From an uncultured Acidobacteriota bacterium (GTDB lineage Bacteria > Acidobacteriota > Vicinamibacteria > Vicinamibacterales > CAVVIG01), in the NCBI GenBank assembly GCA_902825985.1, contig CADEDC010000011.1, positions 1 through 64,000 of the forward strand: a stretch of DNA of 64,000 nt. The letters are read 5' to 3'. A program made the position numbers and the translations under genes. Of the stretch, positions 13,565 to 28,328 are shown piece by piece. The stretch's first letter is position 1. Every line of letters begins with the position of its first letter. The notes under the pieces were generated by a model. It did no database searches and was not told the origin of the DNA. It saw only the letters and a list, made by a program, of their open reading frames with translations.

Positions 13565-15462
13565 CCGGCTGGTTCGCGCACCTGCCGATTCATCGGAAGC
13601 TCGTCGCGCTCGCCCTCATGGTCACCGCGACGGCCCTCGTCCTGGCGACCGCCAGCCTCGTGGCGGTGGACGTCTGGCGGTTCCGCGTCACGGCGATCGA
13701 AGACACCTCGGCGCTCGCCCAGGTCGTCGCCGAGAACATGGTCGCCGCCGTCACGTTCCAGGACGAGGATGCGGCTCGCACGATCCTCGCGACGCTGCGC
13801 GTGCGCCCGGGCCTGCGGCGCGGCTGCGTGTACCTGGAGTCCGGCCGGCTGTTCGCCGGCTTCAACGTGACCGACGCGCTGGTCTGCCCGGCTACCGTCA
13901 CCCGGCCGACTTCGTGGCGCATCGTCGCGGGCAACGCTGACGTCACCCGGAACGGGCGTCAGGTCGGCCGCGTCTACGTGGAGCGTGACCTCTCCGAGAT
14001 CGCGGCACGGATTGCGATTGCCGCCGTCACCGGGCTGGTCGTGCTGCTGGCGGCCGGCGGTGTCGCGTTCCTGCTGGCGCATCGCCTGCATCGTCTCGTG
14101 TCCTCGCCGATCACCCGGCTGGCGGCCGCCGCTCGCGGCATCGATCCGTCGACCGGCAACCTGCACCTGCCCGACCTGGACGCCGGCGGCGACGAGGTGG
14201 GCGACCTGGTGCGGGCGTTCCGCGGCATGCTCGAGCGGGTCCACGACGCCAACGCACGCCTCATCGAGTCGAACGACACGCTCCGCCGCCAGGAATCCGA
14301 GCGCGAAGGGCTGTTGCGCCGCGAGCGCGAGGCGAGCCGGCTGAAGGACGAGTTCCTCGCCGCCGTGTCGCACGAACTGCGGACGCCGCTCAACGCCATC
14401 GTCGGCTGGGTCCAGATCCTCACGACGGCGACGGCCAACGAACGCACCCTGGCCAAGGCCATCGCCAGCATCGAGCGCAACGCCAGGGCGCAGACCCGGG
14501 TCATCGAAGACCTCGTCGACGTCTCGCGCATCGCCGCGGGTACCCTGAACATCCGCGTCGCGCCGGTGTCGCTCCGGGAAGTCGTCGAGGCAGCGCTCGA
14601 CACGCTGCGCGGCGCCGCCGAAGCGCGAGCGATCGACACCCGCGTCACGCTGCCGGCGGACGCCTGCATCGTGCACGGCGACCGTGACCGCCTGCAACAG
14701 GTCGTCTGGAATCTGCTGTCGAACGCGATCAAGTTCACGCCGGAGGGCGGCGCGATGGCCGTCGAGCTCGCCATCGATCGACGCCACTTCACCGTCGCGG
14801 TCACCGACTCGGGCATCGGCATCGAGCCGTCGTTCCTGCCGCAGGTGTTCGAGAAATTCCGCCAGGCCGACGGTTCGATCACCCGGGAGCGCGGCGGCCT
14901 CGGGCTCGGTCTGGCGATCGTCAAGGAACTGACCGAGCTGCACGGCGGCTCGGTCACGGCCGTAAGTGCCGGGCTGGGTCGCGGCGCGACGTTCGTCGTG
15001 CGTCTCCCGCGATGCGACGTGGTCCCGGTCGCCGGGCCGTCCGACGCGGCAGCGGCCGTCGGCCGTCGCGCCAGCCTCGACGGCGTCGAGATTCTCGCCG
15101 TCGACGACAACGCGGATGCCCTCGACGTCCTCGCCGCGACGCTCGGCCAGGCCGGTGCGACGGTCCGCATGGTCACCTCCGGCGCCGAGGCGATCGCGGA
15201 ATGGGAACGTCGTCCGGCGGACGTGCTCATCTGCGATCTCGCCATGCCTCACATGGACGGCTTCGAGGTCCTGCAGGCGATCCGGATGCGTGACCGGGAG
15301 GTCGGGCGTGGGACGCCGGCGATTGCGCTGAGCGCCTACGCGTCGGCCGACTACGTCGACCGGACGCGACGGGCCGGCTTCGCGGCGCACGTCGGCAAGC
15401 CGGCGGCGCTCGACGACCTGATCAACGCCGTGCGCGCGGTCATCGACGAGGTTCGCCAATGA
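13561..15462 (+). CDS. Hybrid sensor histidine kinase (CHASE8-like, HAMP, REC)
   Basis: A 633-aa inner-membrane sensor kinase. Transmembrane helix 1 is at about 15-37 and helix 2 at about 152-173, with a periplasmic sensor of about 115 residues between them (CHASE8/DUF-type; AENMVAAVTFQDEDAA). HAMP follows (SSPITRLAAAARGID), then HisKA with His271 in VSHELRTPLNAI, HATPase (NLLSNAIKFTPEGG, DSGIGI, GLGLGLAIVKE) and a C-terminal receiver whose phosphoacceptor Asp lies in LICDLAMPHMDGF. With both kinase and receiver it can start a phosphorelay, but no histidine phosphotransfer domain or DNA-binding output is encoded here. It overlaps both yfiR upstream and the TonB receptor downstream by ATGA junctions. 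Confidence 0.9.
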   Translation: MTGWFAHLPIHRKLVALALMVTATALVLATASLVAVDVWRFRVTAIEDTSALAQVVAENMVAAVTFQDEDAARTILATLRVRPGLRRGCVYLESGRLFAGFNVTDALVCPATVTRPTSWRIVAGNADVTRNGRQVGRVYVERDLSEIAARIAIAAVTGLVVLLAAGGVAFLLAHRLHRLVSSPITRLAAAARGIDPSTGNLHLPDLDAGGDEVGDLVRAFRGMLERVHDANARLIESNDTLRRQESEREGLLRREREASRLKDEFLAAVSHELRTPLNAIVGWVQILTTATANERTLAKAIASIERNARAQTRVIEDLVDVSRIAAGTLNIRVAPVSLREVVEAALDTLRGAAEARAIDTRVTLPADACIVHGDRDRLQQVVWNLLSNAIKFTPEGGAMAVELAIDRRHFTVAVTDSGIGIEPSFLPQVFEKFRQADGSITRERGGLGLGLAIVKELTELHGGSVTAVSAGLGRGATFVVRLPRCDVVPVAGPSDAAAAVGRRASLDGVEILAVDDNADALDVLAATLGQAGATVRMVTSGAEAIAEWERRPADVLICDLAMPHMDGFEVLQAIRMRDREVGRGTPAIALSAYASADYVDRTRRAGFAAHVGKPAALDDLINAVRAVIDEVRQ

Positions 15463-17480
15463 GATCGGCAGGGACCGGGAGGCTGGCCGGGATGCGGACG
15501 AAGTGCGTCGGGCTCATCACACTGGGGCTGCTGGCCGCCGCCGCACCCGCCGACACGCAGACGACGACTCAGGACCTCAAGCGCATGAGTCTGGCGGCGC
15601 TGCTCAACCTCGACGTGTCGACCGTATCCCGCACGCCCCAACCGGCGATGCAGGTGCCGGCGGCGGTTTTCGTGATCACGGCCGAGGACATCCGGCGATC
15701 CGGAGCGCTTTCCATTCCGGAGGCGCTGCGCCTCGCGCCCGGCGTGCAGGTCGCGCGCGCCAGCGCCGGCACCTGGGCGATCGGCATGCGCGGCTTCGCC
15801 GATCGACTCGCCCGTTCGATGCTGGTGCTGATTGACGGGCGCGCGGTGTACTCGCCGTTGTTCGCCGGCACCTACTGGGAGACGCAGGACACGCTGCTCG
15901 AGGACATCGAGCGAATCGAGGTGATACGCGGTCCGGGTGGCACGCTGTGGGGGGCGAATGCCGTCAACGGCATCATCAACATCATCACCCGCTCGGCCAA
16001 GGAGACAACCGGCGCGCTGGCGACGATTGGCGGCGGCAGCCGGGATCGGGCGTTTGCCGCCGTCCGCTACGGCAGCGCACTGGGAACGACCGGCAGCTAC
16101 CGCCTGTATGCCAAGGGCTTCAGCCGGACGCATCAGTTCCACCCGACCGGGCTCGATTTCGATGGCCTGCACTCGGCGCAGGCCGGCTTTCGCGCCGACT
16201 GGCTGCCGGCCGAGGGACGGGGCGTCACGCTGCAGGGCGATCTCTACGCGGCCCGACTCGGGCAGCGGGCGCTCGTCACCCGTCTGACACCGCCGTTCAG
16301 CGTGACCGACGATCGAGAAGCGCCGCTCGCCGGCGGCAACCTCCTGTGGCGGTGGACCCGGCCGCTGGGCAGGACCGGACCGTTCCAGCTGCAGATGTTC
16401 TATGCCAGAACCACCCGCGACGAGCTCCCGGTGGCCGAGGCGCGCGACACCGTCGATGCCGACTTCCAGCACACGCCGCCGTCGTGGCGGCGCCACCAGT
16501 TCAAGTGGGGGTTGGGCTACCGGCTCACCTCGGGCCGAATCACGGCCGTGGCGCCGACCCGGTTCTTCCCGGAGCGCCGGACGGATCCCCTGTACAGCGG
16601 CTTTGCCCAGGACGACATCACCGTGATTCCGGAGCGCCTCCGGATCACGGTGGGCTCGCGGCTCGAACACAATGCCTACAGCGGTTTCGAGGTACAGCCA
16701 ACGGCGCGGCTGCTGTGGACGCCGTCGTCGACGCAGACCGCCTGGGGCGCCATCACCCGCAGCGTCCGCACGCCGTCACGCGTCGAGACCGATTACACGA
16801 CGGTCAGCGTCGTCAACCCGGCGGTTCCGATCTTCCTCCGGCTGCTCCCGAACCCCGACTTCGTGCCGGAACGGCTCGTCGCGTACGAAGCCGGCTATCG
16901 GCGCCAGCCGCTGCCGTCGGTCGCGGTGTCCGCGGCGGCGTTCTACAACCAGCTCCGTGACGTGCTCAGCGCCGACGCCCTTCCGCCGTTCGTCGAACCG
17001 GCCGCGGCCCCAACCCGGGTCATCCTGCCGGTCACGTTCGGCAACGGCCTCCAGGGCGACAGCTACGGCACCGAATTGTCCCTGGACGTCAGGCCGCGGC
17101 CAGGCTGGCGCGTCGCCGCCAACTACTCCTATCTGCGAATTCAGCTGTCGAAGGACGCCGGCGGGCTCGACGTCTCGCAGGAACGGCGCAACGAGGGTCA
17201 GAGTCCGCGGCATCAGCTGCAGGTCCAGGGCAGCGTCGACCTGCCGGGCAACTGGTCCGCCGACGTCGCGGCCCGGTACATCTCAGGCCTGCCGGCGGCG
17301 GCGATTCCCGGGTATGGGTCGGCGAATCTGCGGCTCGCCTGGCGCGTGTCGACGGGCCTCGAATTCGCGGTGATCGGTCAGGATCTGCTGCAGCCGCGAC
17401 ACGTCGAGTGGCCCGGCGGTGGCGCCGGCCCGATCGGCATCGCGCGGAGCGCGTACGTCAGTCTCTCGTGGCAACGCTGA
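15459..17480 (+). CDS. TonB-dependent receptor of the YfiR operon
   Basis: A 673-aa outer-membrane receptor with no carboxypeptidase-regulatory domain, unlike the other full-length receptors here. The signal peptide (LITLGLLAAAAPADTQ) is followed by a short N-terminal segment (LKRMSLAALLNLDVSTVSR) that is typical of BtuB/CirA-like receptors encoded with sensor kinases. The plug contains PAAVFVITAEDIRRSGA, MLVLIDGRAVYSPLF and IERIEVIRGPGGTLWGAN. The barrel ends in SAYVSLSWQR. The ATG at 15459 overlaps the kinase stop; MRTK at 15492 is an alternative start with a tighter signal peptide. The overlap with yfiR and the kinase suggests a ligand-sensing or uptake unit rather than a stand-alone transporter. 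Confidence 0.88.
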   Translation: MRSAGTGRLAGMRTKCVGLITLGLLAAAAPADTQTTTQDLKRMSLAALLNLDVSTVSRTPQPAMQVPAAVFVITAEDIRRSGALSIPEALRLAPGVQVARASAGTWAIGMRGFADRLARSMLVLIDGRAVYSPLFAGTYWETQDTLLEDIERIEVIRGPGGTLWGANAVNGIINIITRSAKETTGALATIGGGSRDRAFAAVRYGSALGTTGSYRLYAKGFSRTHQFHPTGLDFDGLHSAQAGFRADWLPAEGRGVTLQGDLYAARLGQRALVTRLTPPFSVTDDREAPLAGGNLLWRWTRPLGRTGPFQLQMFYARTTRDELPVAEARDTVDADFQHTPPSWRRHQFKWGLGYRLTSGRITAVAPTRFFPERRTDPLYSGFAQDDITVIPERLRITVGSRLEHNAYSGFEVQPTARLLWTPSSTQTAWGAITRSVRTPSRVETDYTTVSVVNPAVPIFLRLLPNPDFVPERLVAYEAGYRRQPLPSVAVSAAAFYNQLRDVLSADALPPFVEPAAAPTRVILPVTFGNGLQGDSYGTELSLDVRPRPGWRVAANYSYLRIQLSKDAGGLDVSQERRNEGQSPRHQLQVQGSVDLPGNWSADVAARYISGLPAAAIPGYGSANLRLAWRVSTGLEFAVIGQDLLQPRHVEWPGGGAGPIGIARSAYVSLSWQR

Positions 17481-19921: not shown

Positions 19922-20109
19922 CTACCTGACGGTATACGGCAGAAAGACCTGCTGCGGCAGGAAGTCATGGCTGGTTTGCACGGCACACCCGGTCTTGCCC
20001 AGCTCGGCGCTGATCTGGTTCGCGTGAAGCGGCATTCCACCAGCGGCCCCTGCGGCGCGTCCTTCCGGAGGTCGACGATCGCCAGTCGAGCTCCCGGGTG
20101 CTCAACCAT
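19922..20109 (-). pseudogene. Decayed C-terminus of a SAM-dependent methyltransferase
   Basis: Two minus-strand frames together read like the end of a class I methyltransferase. The upstream frame gives HPGARLAIVDLRKDAPQGP, which matches the usual GGRLAIVDLRK strand of such enzymes. After a frameshift near 20020, the second frame gives NQISAELGKTG, then SHDFLPQQVFLPYTVR and a stop at 19924-19922. The SAM-binding N-terminal two-thirds is missing; the universal stress gene ends only 59 bp further on. It is therefore a truncated, frameshifted relic. It begins 10 bp from the palindromic repeat, which may be related to the decay. Confidence 0.5.
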
Positions 20110-21278: not shown

Positions 21279-21611
21279 ATGAACCGCATCTGGGCACTGT
21301 TCGTCATCGTCGCCATGCTGACGCTCTCCGTGTCGCCGTTCGCGGCGACCGTGCATCGCTCCAGCCATGTGATGGACGACTCGTGCCCGATGGTCCATGC
21401 GGAGAACGACGAGCCGTGTATTGGCGCCCCCTGCCCGTGCGATCACGGCAGCGACGGTTCCCTCTTGCCGGCCGGTCCGCTCGCACTGCCGCTGGCGCCT
21501 CGTCAGCTGACGCCTGTCGCGCCCTCGCTTCCACACACCCCCCCTCTCAGCGGTGCGGCGCAGGCCGGATTTCCGCGCGTGCGAGAGCGTCCCCCGTCCC
21601 GTCGCGCCTGA
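21279..21611 (+). CDS. Secreted Cys/His-rich protein of the copper cassette
   Basis: A 110-aa protein with a signal peptide (ALFVIVAMLTLSVSPFAA) and a metal-ligand-rich segment. His26, His30, DDSCPMVHAEND and EPCIGAPCPCDHG supply four Cys, five His and two Met within about 40 residues; the rest is Pro-rich and basic. The layout recalls DUF2946-type proteins that often precede copper TonB receptors. No Shine-Dalgarno sequence is visible before the ATG at 21279. It is followed after 113 bp by the OprC-like receptor, so a periplasmic copper-binding role is inferred. Confidence 0.6.
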   Translation: MNRIWALFVIVAMLTLSVSPFAATVHRSSHVMDDSCPMVHAENDEPCIGAPCPCDHGSDGSLLPAGPLALPLAPRQLTPVAPSLPHTPPLSGAAQAGFPRVRERPPSRRA

Positions 21612-21724
21612 TCCGACGCACACGCGCGATCGCCAGGTGGCGACCCGTGACACATCGACGCGATGTGGCCGGGGTGGGTCTGCCTGGCCAGGATCCGAGG
21701 CTGGTCTCACGGGAGGGAGTTTCC

Positions 21725-24031
21725 ATGGTTACGACATTCGTTCGGGCGGTGGTCACCGCTGTCCTCGTGCCGATGATCGCGATGGCGGCGACGGCGTCGG
21801 CGCAATCACGATTCAGCGTGTCCGGCTCGGTGTCGAGCAGTGACGGAGCCCGGCTGCCACACGCGTCGGTCCTGTTGGTCGATGCGGCGTCTGGCCGTGA
21901 GTTCCGCACCACCAGTGACGATCTCGGATCGTTCTTCCTGGATCGCCTGCCGGCCGGCGACTACGTTCTGGTCGCCGCGTTCCCCGGGCTGGAACCGCGC
22001 ACGATCCAGCCGGTCGCGGTTGGCGCGACGGCGGCGCCGATGCTCACCATCGTGCTCGAACCGGCGCGTGTGCTGGAGATGGTGACGGTGTCGGCCGCCG
22101 TGCCGCGTGACAGCGTCGAGGTCACCGAGGTGCGCGAGAGCTCGGCTCGCGATGTCGGTGAACTGCTGTCCGAACATGCCGGACTGTGGAAGCTGCGCAA
22201 AGGCGCGATCGCCAACGACGTCGTCCTCCGCGGTCTGCAGAGTCGCGACCTCAACATCCTGATCGATGGCGAACGGTTGTACGGCGCCTGTCCGAATCAC
22301 ATGGATCCGCCGGCCTTCCATGTCGACTTCTCGCAAGTCGAACGGGTCGATGTCGGCAAAGGGCCGTTCGACGTACGCTATCAAGGCAGCCTGGGCGGCA
22401 TCGTCAACATCGTCACGCGACGCCCGGACGAAGGATGGCACGCGACCGCAACGGCGGGGCTCGGCTCGTACGGCTATGCCAATCCGTCGACGACGGTGTC
22501 GTACGGGGGCGCGCGGACGTCCGGCCTCGCCGGCGCTTCGTACCGCCGATCCGACCCGTTCCGCGACGGTCGCGGTCAGCTGATGACCGCCGGCGCCGGC
22601 TACCGCACCGACAGCCTCGACTCGGACGCCTTCCGCGCTTCGACCCTCTGGGGCCGCAGCGCGTGGCGTCCGGCCGAGGGTCACCAGCTGGAAATCAGCT
22701 ATACCCGGCAGCGCACCGACCACGTCCTCTACCCGTACTTGTTGATGGACGCCATTTACGACAACGCCGACCGTGCGGCCATTCACTACAACGCGCCGAC
22801 GACCGGGGCGCGGCTGTCTGGAATCAAGGCGCAAGCCTATTACTCGGCGGTCGATCATTGGATGACCGATGCGTATCGCACCTCGTCGACCACGGCGCTG
22901 CGGGCCTATTCCATGGGAACCGACGCCACCACCTACACCGCGGGCGGCCGCGTCGAGGCGGCCGTGATGACCAGCACCGTTGGAGTCGAGCTCTTCCGGC
23001 GCAACTGGAACACGGAGACGGTGATGGCCGGGATGGGCGCCTACGCGCCGCAATACGCCATTCCCGACGTCAACATCGACACGGTCGGCGCGTTCATCGA
23101 GCATGCCCGCCCGCTCTCGTCCTGGGCCTCGCTCGACCTTGGCGGCCGTCTCGATCGCGTCGCCACCGCAGCTGACCCGGCCCGCGCGAACACCGCGCTC
23201 TATGCGGCGTACCACGGCACGACGGCGACATCGCGTAGCGACGTACTGCCGTCCGGCCGCGCCAAGGCGACCTTCCAGCTCTCGAAGCACATCGACCTCG
23301 CGGCCGGCGTCGGTCATACCGCCCGCGTCGCGGAAGGGAACGAGCGGTTCTACGGTCTGCGGCGCATGGGTACCGACTGGGTCGGCAATCCGGGGCTCGC
23401 GCCGGCCAGGAACACCGGCGTGGACGTGTCGCTGTCGCTGCATCGTCCGCGCGTCACGGTGTCGGCGAACGCCTACCTCAACGCCGTGCACGACTACGTC
23501 GCGGTGTATGGTGCGACGCGGCAGCAGATGGTCCCCGGCGTGATGAACACGACCGCGCGTTCGTACGCAAACGTCGACGCGCGGCTCCGCGGCATGGAGG
23601 CAAACGGCACCGTGAAGCTGCGGGCGTTCCTCTCGGTGTCGGGCGACCTCTCGTACGTGCGGGGCACGATGACGCCGGAGCCGTCCATCGGCATCGCGTC
23701 CACCGACCTGACCGAGACGCCGCCGCTGCGCTCACGGCTCCGCATGCGCCTCGACAACAGTCGGGTCTTCGCCGAAGTGGAAGGCGTGGCCAGCGCGGCA
23801 CAGACGCATGTCGATCGCACGCTCGGGGAGTCGACGACACCGTTCTATGCAATCGCCAACCTGTCGGCCGGCCTCCGGCGCGGTCGGCTGTCGGTCACTG
23901 CAGGCGTCGCCAACCTGTTCGATCGCTACTTCGTCGAGCACCTGTCGTATCAGCGCGACCCGTTCCGATCAGGCATCCGCGTTGCCGAGCCTGGGCGCAA
24001 TCTCTTCTCCAGCGTCAGCTGGAAGTTCTGA
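21725..24031 (+). CDS. TonB-dependent copper receptor (OprC-like)
   Basis: A 768-aa outer-membrane receptor: signal peptide, carboxypeptidase-regulatory-like domain (residues 30-120), plug and barrel ending in SSVSWKF. Pseudomonas OprC binds copper through CxxxM and HxM motifs. Both appear here at equivalent places: Cys189 and Met193 in YGACPNHMDPP in the plug, and His378/Met380 in AVDHWMTD in the barrel. This strongly supports copper as substrate. The ATG at 21725 has a GGGAGGGAG ribosome-binding site. It lies in a cassette with a Cys/His-rich exported protein upstream and a CcmH-like protein downstream, which suggests copper supply to exported cuproproteins or cytochrome assembly. Confidence 0.9.
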   Translation: MVTTFVRAVVTAVLVPMIAMAATASAQSRFSVSGSVSSSDGARLPHASVLLVDAASGREFRTTSDDLGSFFLDRLPAGDYVLVAAFPGLEPRTIQPVAVGATAAPMLTIVLEPARVLEMVTVSAAVPRDSVEVTEVRESSARDVGELLSEHAGLWKLRKGAIANDVVLRGLQSRDLNILIDGERLYGACPNHMDPPAFHVDFSQVERVDVGKGPFDVRYQGSLGGIVNIVTRRPDEGWHATATAGLGSYGYANPSTTVSYGGARTSGLAGASYRRSDPFRDGRGQLMTAGAGYRTDSLDSDAFRASTLWGRSAWRPAEGHQLEISYTRQRTDHVLYPYLLMDAIYDNADRAAIHYNAPTTGARLSGIKAQAYYSAVDHWMTDAYRTSSTTALRAYSMGTDATTYTAGGRVEAAVMTSTVGVELFRRNWNTETVMAGMGAYAPQYAIPDVNIDTVGAFIEHARPLSSWASLDLGGRLDRVATAADPARANTALYAAYHGTTATSRSDVLPSGRAKATFQLSKHIDLAAGVGHTARVAEGNERFYGLRRMGTDWVGNPGLAPARNTGVDVSLSLHRPRVTVSANAYLNAVHDYVAVYGATRQQMVPGVMNTTARSYANVDARLRGMEANGTVKLRAFLSVSGDLSYVRGTMTPEPSIGIASTDLTETPPLRSRLRMRLDNSRVFAEVEGVASAAQTHVDRTLGESTTPFYAIANLSAGLRRGRLSVTAGVANLFDRYFVEHLSYQRDPFRSGIRVAEPGRNLFSSVSWKF

Positions 24032-24139
24032 GGCTGTAACAAGGGCCCGCCATTCTGCATCGCTCCGATAGCGGCGTGTCCGGATTCACCGGACGCGCCG
24101 CGGGGTTGACCAACCGCACGTGGCGGCAGGAGGGGTGTG

Positions 24140-24643
24140 ATGAGGAGGCTGGCGCTTGCCGTCCTGGTCGCGGTTGGCATGGCGACGGGGCTGGACGCCG
24201 ACACCCGTCGGCGGGCCGGCGACGAATCCAGCGATACGGCGTTGACGCGCGAGGCCCAGACCGTGGCGGCCATGCTGATGGCGCCGTGCTGCTACTCGCA
24301 GCAGGCCTCGGTGCACCAGTCGGACGCCGCCGAGCAGGTGCGGCTCGACGTTCGCGCTCGCCTCGGCCGTGGCGAGACGCGGGCCCGGATTCTCGAGGCG
24401 TACGTGGCGCGCTACGGCAAGCGGATTCTCGCGGAGCCACCGGCCACCGGATTCGACCGCTCGCTGTACATCCTGCCCGTCGTCGTGTTCGGCCTGAGCC
24501 TCGGGCTCGTGGCGATCGTGCTGCGTCGCTCCTCTCGGCGGCCGTCCGAAGGCACGGCCGGCCCCACCGGGGCAGACGAGCACGACGAGGTGCCCGCAAC
24601 CGTCCAGCGGCAACTCGACGACGAGCTGCGCGATCTGGACTAG
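24140..24643 (+). CDS. CcmH-like cytochrome c maturation protein, CC variant
   Basis: A 167-aa membrane-anchored periplasmic protein of the CcmH/CycL type. The family holds apocytochrome thiols reduced for haem attachment, normally with an LRCxxCQ motif. Here the equivalent place reads MLMAPCCYSQQASVHQS, with adjacent cysteines 50-51. The rest of the family pattern is kept: VRLDVRARLGRGETRARILEAYVARYGKRILAEPP, followed by one transmembrane helix (ILPVVVFGLSLGLVAIVL) and an acidic tail. The ATG at 24140 follows CAGGAGGGG; a GTG 3 nt earlier is possible. It follows the copper receptor by about 108 bp on the same strand. No other ccm gene is in the window. Confidence 0.75.
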   Translation: MRRLALAVLVAVGMATGLDADTRRRAGDESSDTALTREAQTVAAMLMAPCCYSQQASVHQSDAAEQVRLDVRARLGRGETRARILEAYVARYGKRILAEPPATGFDRSLYILPVVVFGLSLGLVAIVLRRSSRRPSEGTAGPTGADEHDEVPATVQRQLDDELRDLD

Positions 24644-24871
24644 ACGAGCTGCCGTCCGCACTCTGGACCAGTCGAGCTGCCGCCAAGGACCACAATCGGT
24701 TCGCTTTGTGATACCCCGTCACCTCGGGCCCGTCGCTGCATCTCTCACGCAGGGGATCGCCGGCGTCCTCGCGGTTCACCGATAGCCGGTCATCGCTGGC
24801 GGACGGCGCTGGCGCCCGCAGCGTGGACCGGTTACCTCATGCGGACCCACTCAGCTTCCAGGAGCACTTCC

Positions 24872-25312
24872 ATGATCAATGCACACCTTATCCGACGCTG
24901 GGCTCTGTTCGCGGGCCTCGCGATGATCGCTGGCGCGTCCACCGCGGCGGCACAACGCGGCGGCGGAATGGGCACGCCGCGCTACGATTCGGCCACGGAG
25001 ACGACAATCACCGGTACGGTGACCGAGGTCCAGTCGCATCAAGGTCGCATGAATCGTACGGGTGTTCACCTGATGGTTCAGACAGCGACCGGCACGATCG
25101 ACGTGCACGTCGCCCCGACCGCGTGGCTGGCGGAGCACCACCACGAGTTCAGCACGGGCGACACCGTGACGGTTGTCGGTTCGCTCGTCACCATCGATGA
25201 GACGAAGGCGCTGCTGGCGCGCGAGATCACCCGTGGCGCCGCGACCGTCACCCTGCGCGACAAGAGCGGCCGTCCCGAGTGGGCACGGGCGCGCGGCCGT
25301 CGTCAGTCGTAG
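24872..25312 (+). CDS. Secreted OB-fold-like protein
   Basis: A 146-aa exported protein with a signal peptide (FAGLAMIAGASTAAAQ) and a small beta-rich domain (TTITGTVTEVQSH, GVHLMVQTATGTIDVHVAP, DTVTVVGSLVTID, TLRDKSGRPEWA). It resembles an OB-fold of the kind found in many short Acidobacteriota exported proteins. Three successive His (AEHHHEF) and a His pair at each end could bind metal, but this is not established. The ATG at 24872 has AGGAG 11 nt upstream. It may belong to the copper cassette, 228 bp downstream of the CcmH-like gene, though it could be independent. Confidence 0.6.
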   Translation: MINAHLIRRWALFAGLAMIAGASTAAAQRGGGMGTPRYDSATETTITGTVTEVQSHQGRMNRTGVHLMVQTATGTIDVHVAPTAWLAEHHHEFSTGDTVTVVGSLVTIDETKALLAREITRGAATVTLRDKSGRPEWARARGRRQS

Positions 25313-26253: not shown

Positions 26254-27165
26254 TCAGCGCGTGCCGTAGGACGTCCGGGCGTCGAGGCCCTGCAGGACGG
26301 CTTGCAGGATGTCGTCGCAGGTGGTCGTCAGCTTCCCCTTCTCGTTCAACGCCAGGGCCAGCGAACGGACGTTGGTATTGCGCCGTGACAGGGCAAGGAT
26401 TTCACGATGGCTCGTCATGAACGTGTCGAACGCCGTCACGGCGTCGTTGACGGCCGTCCGCCCCCGCCCGGGTGTGACATCGGCGAGCCTGCGTAAGGTC
26501 TGGCGCACAGTCGCCTCGGATGCCTCCATCCGCTGCTCCATCCGTGTCATCGAGGCATCGGCTGGTTCGGCGATATGTGGCGCCTCCATCGCCTGGAGGC
26601 TCCGCACCGCCGTCGTCACTTCGGCGACCAGCGCACGAGTCCGCCAATCGCCCGGCACGGCCCGCGCGACGGTCTGCAGTGCGGCGACAACGGCGTCGGC
26701 GCGATCGGCGGCGAGTCCGAACGACAACTGCTGGGCCTTGATGTTGCTGTTCTCGACAGCAAGGTCGAGTATCCGCGCCTCGAGGGCGCGATACTCCGCG
26801 AACCGGAGTGTGAAGGTCGCCACCTGCTCGGCTTCTGGCTGGTAGCCGAGTCCCTGTACGAGCGGCAGCAGGGCGTCAAGGTTTCGCTGTGCCACGTCGG
26901 ATGCCTGACGGGCCTCCAGGGCGGCCGCCTGCGACGCTTCGTCCGTCAGGGCCATCACGGCGCGATTCGTCGCGTCACTGGCCTTCGTAAACGATACGGC
27001 CAGTTCGCTGGCCCGGTGGCGCGCATCCAGCGTCCGCACCATCGCCGGACGCTGCTGGCACGCCGTCAGCGTCAGCGCGAGGGCCACCAGCCCCCCCGTC
27101 CACCGAGCGCCGCGCACCGACGCGAACGAGGGGACGAACCGTGTGTCGATTACCCTCTGTCTCAT
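26254..27165 (-). CDS. Helical-bundle lipoprotein at the end of the kdp operon
   Basis: A 303-aa predicted lipoprotein (lipobox LTAC, ALTLTACQQRP). The remainder is almost entirely alpha-helical and Ala/Leu/Arg-rich, with a pattern like the four-helix bundle sensor modules of chemoreceptors (MALTDEASQAAALEARQASD, AFDTFMTSHREILALSRRN). It has no kinase, HAMP or methyl-accepting domain. The ATG at 27165 overlaps the stop of the truncated KdpD gene (ATGA), so the two are translationally coupled. A periplasmic or outer-membrane sensor or accessory of the Kdp system is inferred from position alone; no family name was recognised. Confidence 0.6.
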   Translation of the reverse strand: MRQRVIDTRFVPSFASVRGARWTGGLVALALTLTACQQRPAMVRTLDARHRASELAVSFTKASDATNRAVMALTDEASQAAALEARQASDVAQRNLDALLPLVQGLGYQPEAEQVATFTLRFAEYRALEARILDLAVENSNIKAQQLSFGLAADRADAVVAALQTVARAVPGDWRTRALVAEVTTAVRSLQAMEAPHIAEPADASMTRMEQRMEASEATVRQTLRRLADVTPGRGRTAVNDAVTAFDTFMTSHREILALSRRNTNVRSLALALNEKGKLTTTCDDILQAVLQGLDARTSYGTR

Positions 27166-28328
27166 CGCCGCACCGCCGTGTCCCCATCTGCGCCACTGGG
27201 CGGCACCACCTGGACGGCGGCGTCGCGGACTTCCGAGAGAAAGCGATCGATCGTCGACCCCCGCCAGATCAGCTCCCATCGTGACCTGGCACTCTGGCCG
27301 AAAATCACGTGGGTGATCCCCTCCCGCTGCGCGAACGCAATCAGCCCCTGCGACGGCGACTCGGCGGTCACCCGAACGACCGTCGCGCCGAGCGATTCCG
27401 CCAGGCCGATGTTCTGCCGCAGCGCCTCCGAGTCGGCGGCCGTCATCCGCCCCGGACGCTCGGCCGGTGTCTGCACATAGACGGCGTACCAGCGGGCGCC
27501 AAGCCGGCCGGCAATCCGGGCGCCGGTGCGGATGACGCGCGGCGCGTGCGCATTCGAACTCATGCATACCATCACACGCTCGGGTATCAGCGCCGGCTCC
27601 AGCCCTTCGCGCTCACGGTAGCTCGCCGCTTTTTCACCGACCTCATCGGCAACCGCGCGCAACGCGAGCTCGCGCAGCGTCGACAGATTGCCCTTGCGGA
27701 AGAAGTGATTCAGCGCCTGCTCGACCTTCTCCGGACGGTAGACCTTGCCGTGTCGCAGACGGTCACGGAGCTCCTCCACCGTCACATCGACGTTGATGAC
27801 CTCGTCGGCGCGATCGAGGAACGTGTCCGGCACGGTCTCGCGCACGCGCACACCGGTGACCCGTGCGACGGCGTCGTTCAGCGTCTCGAGGTGCTGGATG
27901 TTGACCGCCGTCATCACATGGATCCCGGCGTTCAACAGGTCGAGTACGTCCTGGTAGCGCTTCTCGTTGCGACTGCCCGGTGCGTTGGAGTGCGCCAGTT
28001 CGTCGACGAGGCACACCTGCGGACGGCGGGCGATGATGGCGTCGACATCCATCTCCTCCAGTACGGTGCCACGATACTCGATCCGACGGCGCGGCACGAC
28101 CTCGAGGTCCTTGATCTGGGCCAGCGTATCTGCCCGCTCGTCGGCCTCGATGACGCCGGCGACGACATCGACGCCGCGGGCACGCAGGACCTGCGCCTCC
28201 TGCAGCATCGCGTAGGTCTTGCCGACTCCCGGCGCCGCCCCGATGTAGATCCGCAGCCGCGCCCGATCCCGGTGTTTGAGGCGTTCCAGCAGCGCTTCCG
28301 GCGTCCGGTGGGGCATCGCCTGGTTCAT
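27162..28328 (-). CDS. kdpD: KdpD N-terminal half (ATP-binding and Usp domains)
   Basis: A 388-aa soluble protein equal to the cytoplasmic N-terminal half of KdpD, the turgor/potassium sensor. Walker A is GAAPGVGKT (residues 30-38) and Walker B is CLVDELAHSNAPGS (Asp109). The C-terminal part is a Usp domain (VMVCMSSNAHAPRVIRTGAR; FGQSARSRWELIWRGSTIDR). It has no membrane segments and no kinase domain. The missing half is encoded 5.4 kb upstream in the same operon direction; 388 plus 498 residues nearly equals the usual length of about 890. The ATG at 28328 has a strong GAGGAGG site and follows kdpC by 21 nt. In E. coli this region modulates kinase activity by nucleotide and c-di-AMP-type signals. 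Confidence 0.93.
   Translation of the reverse strand: MNQAMPHRTPEALLERLKHRDRARLRIYIGAAPGVGKTYAMLQEAQVLRARGVDVVAGVIEADERADTLAQIKDLEVVPRRRIEYRGTVLEEMDVDAIIARRPQVCLVDELAHSNAPGSRNEKRYQDVLDLLNAGIHVMTAVNIQHLETLNDAVARVTGVRVRETVPDTFLDRADEVINVDVTVEELRDRLRHGKVYRPEKVEQALNHFFRKGNLSTLRELALRAVADEVGEKAASYREREGLEPALIPERVMVCMSSNAHAPRVIRTGARIAGRLGARWYAVYVQTPAERPGRMTAADSEALRQNIGLAESLGATVVRVTAESPSQGLIAFAQREGITHVIFGQSARSRWELIWRGSTIDRFLSEVRDAAVQVVPPSGADGDTAVRR

Follow-up and report, generated by a model that had tools for sequence, protein, structure and literature searches.

A cysteine-rich leader upstream of OprC-type copper receptor genes in Acidobacteriota: a candidate copper-sensing arrest peptide

A 64,000-nucleotide (nt) stretch of DNA from an uncultured Acidobacteriota bacterium of the order Vicinamibacterales (GCA_902825985.1, contig CADEDC010000011.1, positions 1 to 64,000 of the forward strand; hereafter the window) was analyzed for a putative copper uptake locus. 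On the plus strand, the gene of an OprC-like TonB-dependent copper receptor of 768 amino acids (21725–24031) is preceded by a 110-amino-acid open reading frame (ORF) for a small, cysteine-rich peptide (21279–21611). The two genes are read here as one unit, consisting of an OprC-type importer and, 113 nt upstream of it, a leader that would sense copper during its own synthesis in the manner of CruR and CutF. The probability of this reading is estimated at roughly three in four. The arrangement of a receptor gene with an upstream Cys-rich leader ORF was found across Acidobacteriota.

The receptor gene starts with the ATG at 21725, and its stop codon ends at 24031; the coordinates and residue numbers given in an earlier sequence-only reading of the window proved correct for the gene and for both copper motifs. 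CPNHM (22289–22303, plus strand), with Cys189 and Met193, represents the plug half of the putative copper site, and HWM (22856–22864, plus strand), with His378 and Met380, the barrel half, as judged from the alignment with OprC and from conservation. The patterns CxxxM and HxM each occur only once in the whole protein, and both were present together in 0.8% of shuffled receptor sequences. Their position in the alignment with OprC is a stronger test than this frequency. In a phmmer search against the PDB, OprC chains were the best matches (6fok with an E-value of 1.4e-26), and CPNHM was aligned over CPNRM and HWM over HIM of 6fok. Hence, the equation of the two residue pairs with the copper site of OprC, first drawn in the sequence-only reading, is borne out by the coinciding aligned positions.

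Plug (PF07715) and barrel (PF00593) domains scored above the Pfam cut-offs, and a CarboxypepD_reg domain was detected at the N-terminus. The best NCBIfam family was TIGR01778 (TonB-copper), with 185.7 bits and below its cut-off of 472.45; judged by these scores, the receptor is a distant OprC relative and not an equivalog under NCBI's TIGR01778 rule. An AlphaFold (AF2) model, based on an alignment of 25 sequences, reached a mean predicted local distance difference test score (pLDDT) of 85.5. Modelling had been named in the sequence-only reading as a way to check the assignment, and the model was indeed nearest to OprC structures: the 13 top PDB entries were all OprC (Z 37.8–38.9, root-mean-square deviation 2.4–2.7), while heme and zinc receptors scored below them. 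The window receptor thus shares the TonB-dependent receptor fold and the CxxxM–HxM ligands at aligned positions with OprC of Pseudomonas aeruginosa and NosA of P. stutzeri, but has about 24% identity to OprC in the structural alignment and carries the additional N-terminal CarboxypepD_reg domain. Alignment and model support the predicted function of an OprC-type copper receptor. A second TonB-dependent receptor of the window (15459–17480) comes near the TOL_0244 family, with 618 bits vs. a cut-off of 645.

The conservation of the copper site was determined in an even draw of 396 Acidobacteriota genomes, 56 of which contained the receptor at an E-value of 1e-60 or better. Four of these receptors (L057, L062, L075 and G128) were left out as their upstream DNA was missing or unfetched, and a contig scan baited with motif peptides was kept out of the counts. 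Met193, His378 and Met380 were kept in 52/52 aligned receptors; no other Cys, His or Met column reached 48/52. The position of Cys189 was occupied by Cys in 34 and by Gly in 18 receptors, a substitution that sets these receptors apart from OprC. The 18 Gly receptors form one clade in the tree (support 100/100). The top PDB match of a Gly-clade receptor was an OprC sequence with Ala in place of that Cys. For the OprC variant C143A, the sections of the report consulted here describe a loss of Cu(II) binding with three silver peaks retained, which was read as Cu(I) competence (PMC8610252). We infer by analogy that the Gly clade is the natural counterpart of this variant and would represent a Cu(I)-only version of the receptor.

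The leader ORF of the window (21279–21611, plus strand) encodes a hydrophobic N-terminus, the Cys-containing segments CPM and, further on, CIGAPCPCDH, and the tail RERPPSRRA. Signal peptides were judged from hydropathy alone, without SignalP. The CPC motif (Cys52 and Cys54; 21432–21440) is the proposed copper site. Its Cys residues precede the PP motif (Pro105–Pro106; 21591–21596) by 52 and 50 residues; PP is the proposed site of translation arrest and lies 4 residues away from the C-terminus. The intergenic stretch between leader and receptor (21612–21724, 113 nt) contains the ribosome-binding site GGGAGG.

In order to count such leaders, a strict rule was applied: an ORF on the same strand, no more than 900 nt upstream, with a hydrophobic N-terminus, at least 3 Cys and PP within the last 15 residues. 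Fifty receptors were scored, L094 and L100 having been dropped from the 52 for short upstream DNA, and 176 genes from the window and related loci served as controls. The rule was satisfied upstream of 30/50 receptors vs. 1/176 control genes, and a PPP tail was found for 22/50 vs. 0/176. Among receptors unseen during rule-making, 19/37 had a leader (p 5e-16). When PP was not required, a signal-bearing Cys-rich ORF was found upstream of 32/51 receptors, and 31 of these 32 receptors had one with PP in its last 18 residues; relaxed rules added about two leaders among the strict-rule misses. The full rule, including the spacing between Cys and PP, was matched by a single ORF in the entire window, the leader at 21279–21611, and by 16 ORFs in 491 kb of related loci, all 16 of them known leaders at receptors. 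The leader-like ORFs L090 and L098 were dropped as chance matches, since they lacked a Cys motif and, in addition, either showed a gap of 706 nt or ended in a poor tail. This left 44 leaders for analysis.

The 44 leaders barely align: the mean column identity is 15%, and what they share is Cys, the tail and scattered prolines. Nonsynonymous divergence (dN) was below synonymous divergence (dS) in 23 of 24 close leader pairs; thus, the leader ORFs evolve as proteins. In 44/44 leaders, a Cys is located 46–55 residues ahead of the PP run, and 19/19 leaders that had not been used in rule-making also have a Cys in this range. After clustering at 40% identity, a Cys lay at 51–54 in 28 of 33 representatives; in 300 trials with randomly shifted patterns, this count averaged 17 and never exceeded 22. 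Clusters were formed by global identity at three thresholds, and at none of them did any of 300 random shifts reach the observed value. Single-linkage clustering by BLAST, which chained 36/44 leaders into one group (ruler p 0.09–0.10), was discarded. The PP run is followed by a median of 4 residues, and the tails are of the types PP(P)R, RAPP/RGPP or xPPx, mostly PPPR or xHPP, with RAPP/RGPP in 5/44 leaders (L065, L078, L082, L099 and L102).

This geometry resembles that of CruR from Bordetella pertussis. According to the available part of its description (PMC9426467), CruR is a DUF2946 leader of the TonB receptor gene bfrG/crtA; its CXXC motif and C-terminal RAPP motif are 45 residues apart, both are needed for copper control, and the peptide acts via Rho-dependent termination. 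Homologues of CruR were reported there upstream of OprC-type genes. As far as CruR is described there, the acidobacterial leaders share with it an exported Cys peptide as the first gene, a C-terminal PP, a Cys–PP spacing near 50 and a TonB receptor gene downstream past a long gap. The fixed spacing of CruR is therefore found in the acidobacterial leaders as well, but these carry CxC or a single Cys rather than CXXC, and their tails are mostly PPPR or xHPP, with RAPP/RGPP in some. For comparison, OprC-like loci of proteobacterial plasmids had a leader with a RAPP/RGPP tail and a Cys–PP distance of 46–48 in 5/6 cases, and 3/3 scanned leaders of this control matched DUF2946 (one above the Pfam cut-off, two just below). 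SecM and the RAPP-type arrest peptides (RQH family, uA_LPPP) are likewise exported leaders whose C-terminal region bears a RAPP-like or PPP motif. In the descriptions consulted, however, they precede secA, secDF or yidC and serve as monitors of protein export, and a Cys ruler is not among the features mentioned. A literature search of titles and abstract starts, which did not cover supplements, returned no paper describing the leader–receptor arrangement in Acidobacteriota, and the word TonB is absent from the main text of PMC13122619.

In analogy to CruR, copper control of the receptor gene might proceed as follows. The leader would be translated and its export would begin, as its signal-like N-terminus suggests, and the ribosome would slow or halt at the C-terminal PP. 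The Cys cluster, lying about 50 residues further toward the N-terminus, would then be just clear of the ribosome tunnel and free to bind copper. Upon copper binding, arrest would end, the ribosome would depart, and Rho would gain access to the C-rich RNA of the leader, so that no receptor would be made. Under copper scarcity, the ribosome would remain stalled and keep Rho off; the receptor would be made and would import copper via its Met–HxM site, with Cys189 as a fourth ligand conferring Cu(II) competence.

The leader RNA would suit Rho. Within the leader, a C-rich, G-poor stretch of 80 nt (21471–21550, plus strand) ranks by GC skew among the lowest 0.2% of all 80-nt segments of the 64 kb and is a candidate Rho-loading (rut) region, to whose composition the proline codons contribute; C exceeds G in 43/44 leaders. 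An intrinsic terminator was searched for in the gap between leader and receptor (21612–21724) and none was found, nor was a sigma-70-like promoter found between 20900 and 25600.

Several observations weigh against copper sensing by a CruR/CutF-type leader. None of the 44 acidobacterial leaders matched DUF2946 (PF11162) at E-values up to 0.1. The window leader carries CIGAPCPC, a CxC pattern, instead of CXXC, and its tail RERPP is neither RAPP nor PPPR. No clear ribosome-binding site precedes its ATG, and the fold of the intergenic RNA is no better than that of shuffled sequences (z 0.80), which gives no sign of unusual structure in this RNA. The loci on which the leader rule had been developed include 13 of the 50 receptors later tested. 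In addition, no leader was found by the strict rule at 20/50 receptors, including G007, the nearest relative of the window receptor in the tree. Contigs of metagenome-assembled genomes may be cut or chimeric. In the leader pair L088/L089, dN exceeded dS. Finally, a copper-repressed leader in front of a copper enzyme, as in the nos loci described below, would be odd, and the sign of control may differ there. When the 44 leaders were searched against Pfam, no family was matched, and a match of 1/44 leaders to an NCBIfam lantibiotic model was dismissed (E 0.076). By these searches, the leader appears CruR-like in architecture and not DUF2946 by sequence.

The sign of control is the point at issue with CutF of Rhodobacter capsulatus, a related leader with a copper response opposite to that of CruR (PMC9973294, as far as consulted). 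If the acidobacterial leader worked in this mode, copper sensed during export would strengthen the pause, open the ribosome-binding site of the receptor gene and turn it on. In the sections seen, CutF-like peptides are filtered as having fewer than 150 residues, PP in the last 15, a signal peptide and a same-strand gene within 1,000 nt (PMC9973294). The window leader passes these filters (110 amino acids, PP at 105–106, a hydrophobic N-terminus, the receptor at 113 nt) and may be counted as CutF-like in this operational sense. It also resembles CutF, as described there, in size, signal, Cys motif, C-terminal proline-rich motif and its place as leader of a copper gene, and activation by copper would fit copper-induced nos operons. 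However, the target of CutF is a multicopper oxidase, which it activates in response to copper through an intergenic stem-loop, and the fold value given above leaves no outstanding stem-loop over the receptor start of the window locus. Moreover, repression by copper is the likelier mode of control for an importer, as was reported for oprC and bfrG in the part of PMC9426467 consulted. Since an importer is expected to be shut off by copper, the CruR mode is favored, and the CutF mode is considered unlikely.

The small protein might instead receive copper from the receptor and act as a chaperone or buffer in the periplasm, given that it is predicted to be exported, is Cys-rich and adjoins a copper importer. 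This is improbable, as a chaperone needs neither a C-terminal PP nor a fixed Cys–PP spacing, both of which an arrest peptide needs, and as the sequences hardly align beyond the shared features named above. CutF, moreover, is quickly degraded once exported, according to the sections of PMC9973294 seen. From its sequence features, a role of the Cys/His-rich protein as regulatory leader peptide is thus more likely than one in carrying copper.

Downstream of the receptor, on the same strand as leader and receptor, follow a CcmH-family protein (24137–24643, plus strand; PF03918, 7e-20), in which PCC replaces the usual CxxC, and an exported protein that weakly resembles OB folds (24872–25312, plus strand; PF01336, E-value 4e-4, below cut-off). 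The flanking genes noted in the sequence-only reading, including the small exported ORF, are therefore present. Gaps of 105 and 228 nt would permit co-transcription of all four ORFs in the window genome. Synteny was examined at 40 receptor loci including that of the window, with flanks of 1.5–6 kb, several of them ended by contig ends. Within the DNA fetched, neither a CcmH-like nor an OB gene was found at any of the 39 other loci. Nine further genomes of the order encode relatives of the CcmH-like protein, at 42–50% identity and among unrelated genes, and ten other genomes contain relatives of the OB protein in varied, unrelated contexts. The four-gene copper cassette proposed earlier, in which the leader, the receptor and both proteins would act jointly in cytochrome or cuproenzyme assembly, is thus the least probable explanation, since the CcmH-like and OB genes stand together with a receptor only at the window's own locus and the cassette as drawn is particular to this genome. 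The motif PCCWSQ also occurs in the CcmH-like relative L123, and the protein at 24872–25312 shows a weak similarity to the magnetosome protein MamS (E-value 1.6e-6, far below cut-off).

In relatives of the window locus, the receptor is associated with nitrous-oxide reduction. A GltD-like oxidoreductase gene lies 3' of the receptor on the same strand in eight distinct loci; Rieske and cytochrome b genes come next in six of them, the fetched DNA ending earlier in the other two, and nosZ follows in 4/4 loci with long enough DNA. Upstream DNA was covered for seven of the eight loci, and the leader was found in all seven. The order leader, OprC-like receptor, GltD-like, Rieske, cytochrome b and nosZ (Sec-dependent) was observed in L020, L031, L035/L110 and L113, and these nos neighbors recall the setting of NosA. 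Receptor and nosZ co-occurred in 17/396 genomes vs. 7.2 expected (p 1.4e-4, a value that ignores shared ancestry). A search of the window's own genome for NosZ gave no match, so copper there must serve other enzymes. The earlier suggestion that copper import is linked to cuproenzymes therefore holds in relatives, via nitrous-oxide reductase, and is not upheld by synteny for CcmH. With these loci included, a broader version of the leader–receptor reading can be formulated: a phylum-wide family of arrest peptides that has no detectable relation to DUF2946, uses a Cys–PP ruler of about 50 residues and would control OprC-type receptors and probably the nos operon of one lineage, with a Gly sister clade that is Cu(I)-only. 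For this version as a whole, the arguments appear evenly balanced.

Some further features of the window were recorded. A methyltransferase gene remnant (19925–20097, minus strand) is split across two frames; in the leaderless G007 (L003/L013), an intact relative of it immediately precedes the receptor. A 388-amino-acid ORF (27162–28328, minus strand) resembles the N-terminal part of KdpD only and adjoins kdpC-like and kdpB-like ORFs; these labels come from reading the translations.

The CruR/CutF idea gains here a second set of cases that is unrelated by sequence and whose conserved feature is the geometry alone: a Cys, a spacer of about 50 residues, PP and stop. Since geometry alone is conserved across unrelated sequences, the ruler model is directly testable. 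The Gly clade offers natural material to examine whether the choice between Cu(II) and Cu(I) uptake depends on the Cys. Furthermore, the findings suggest that copper control heads nitrous-oxide reduction genes in abundant soil bacteria.

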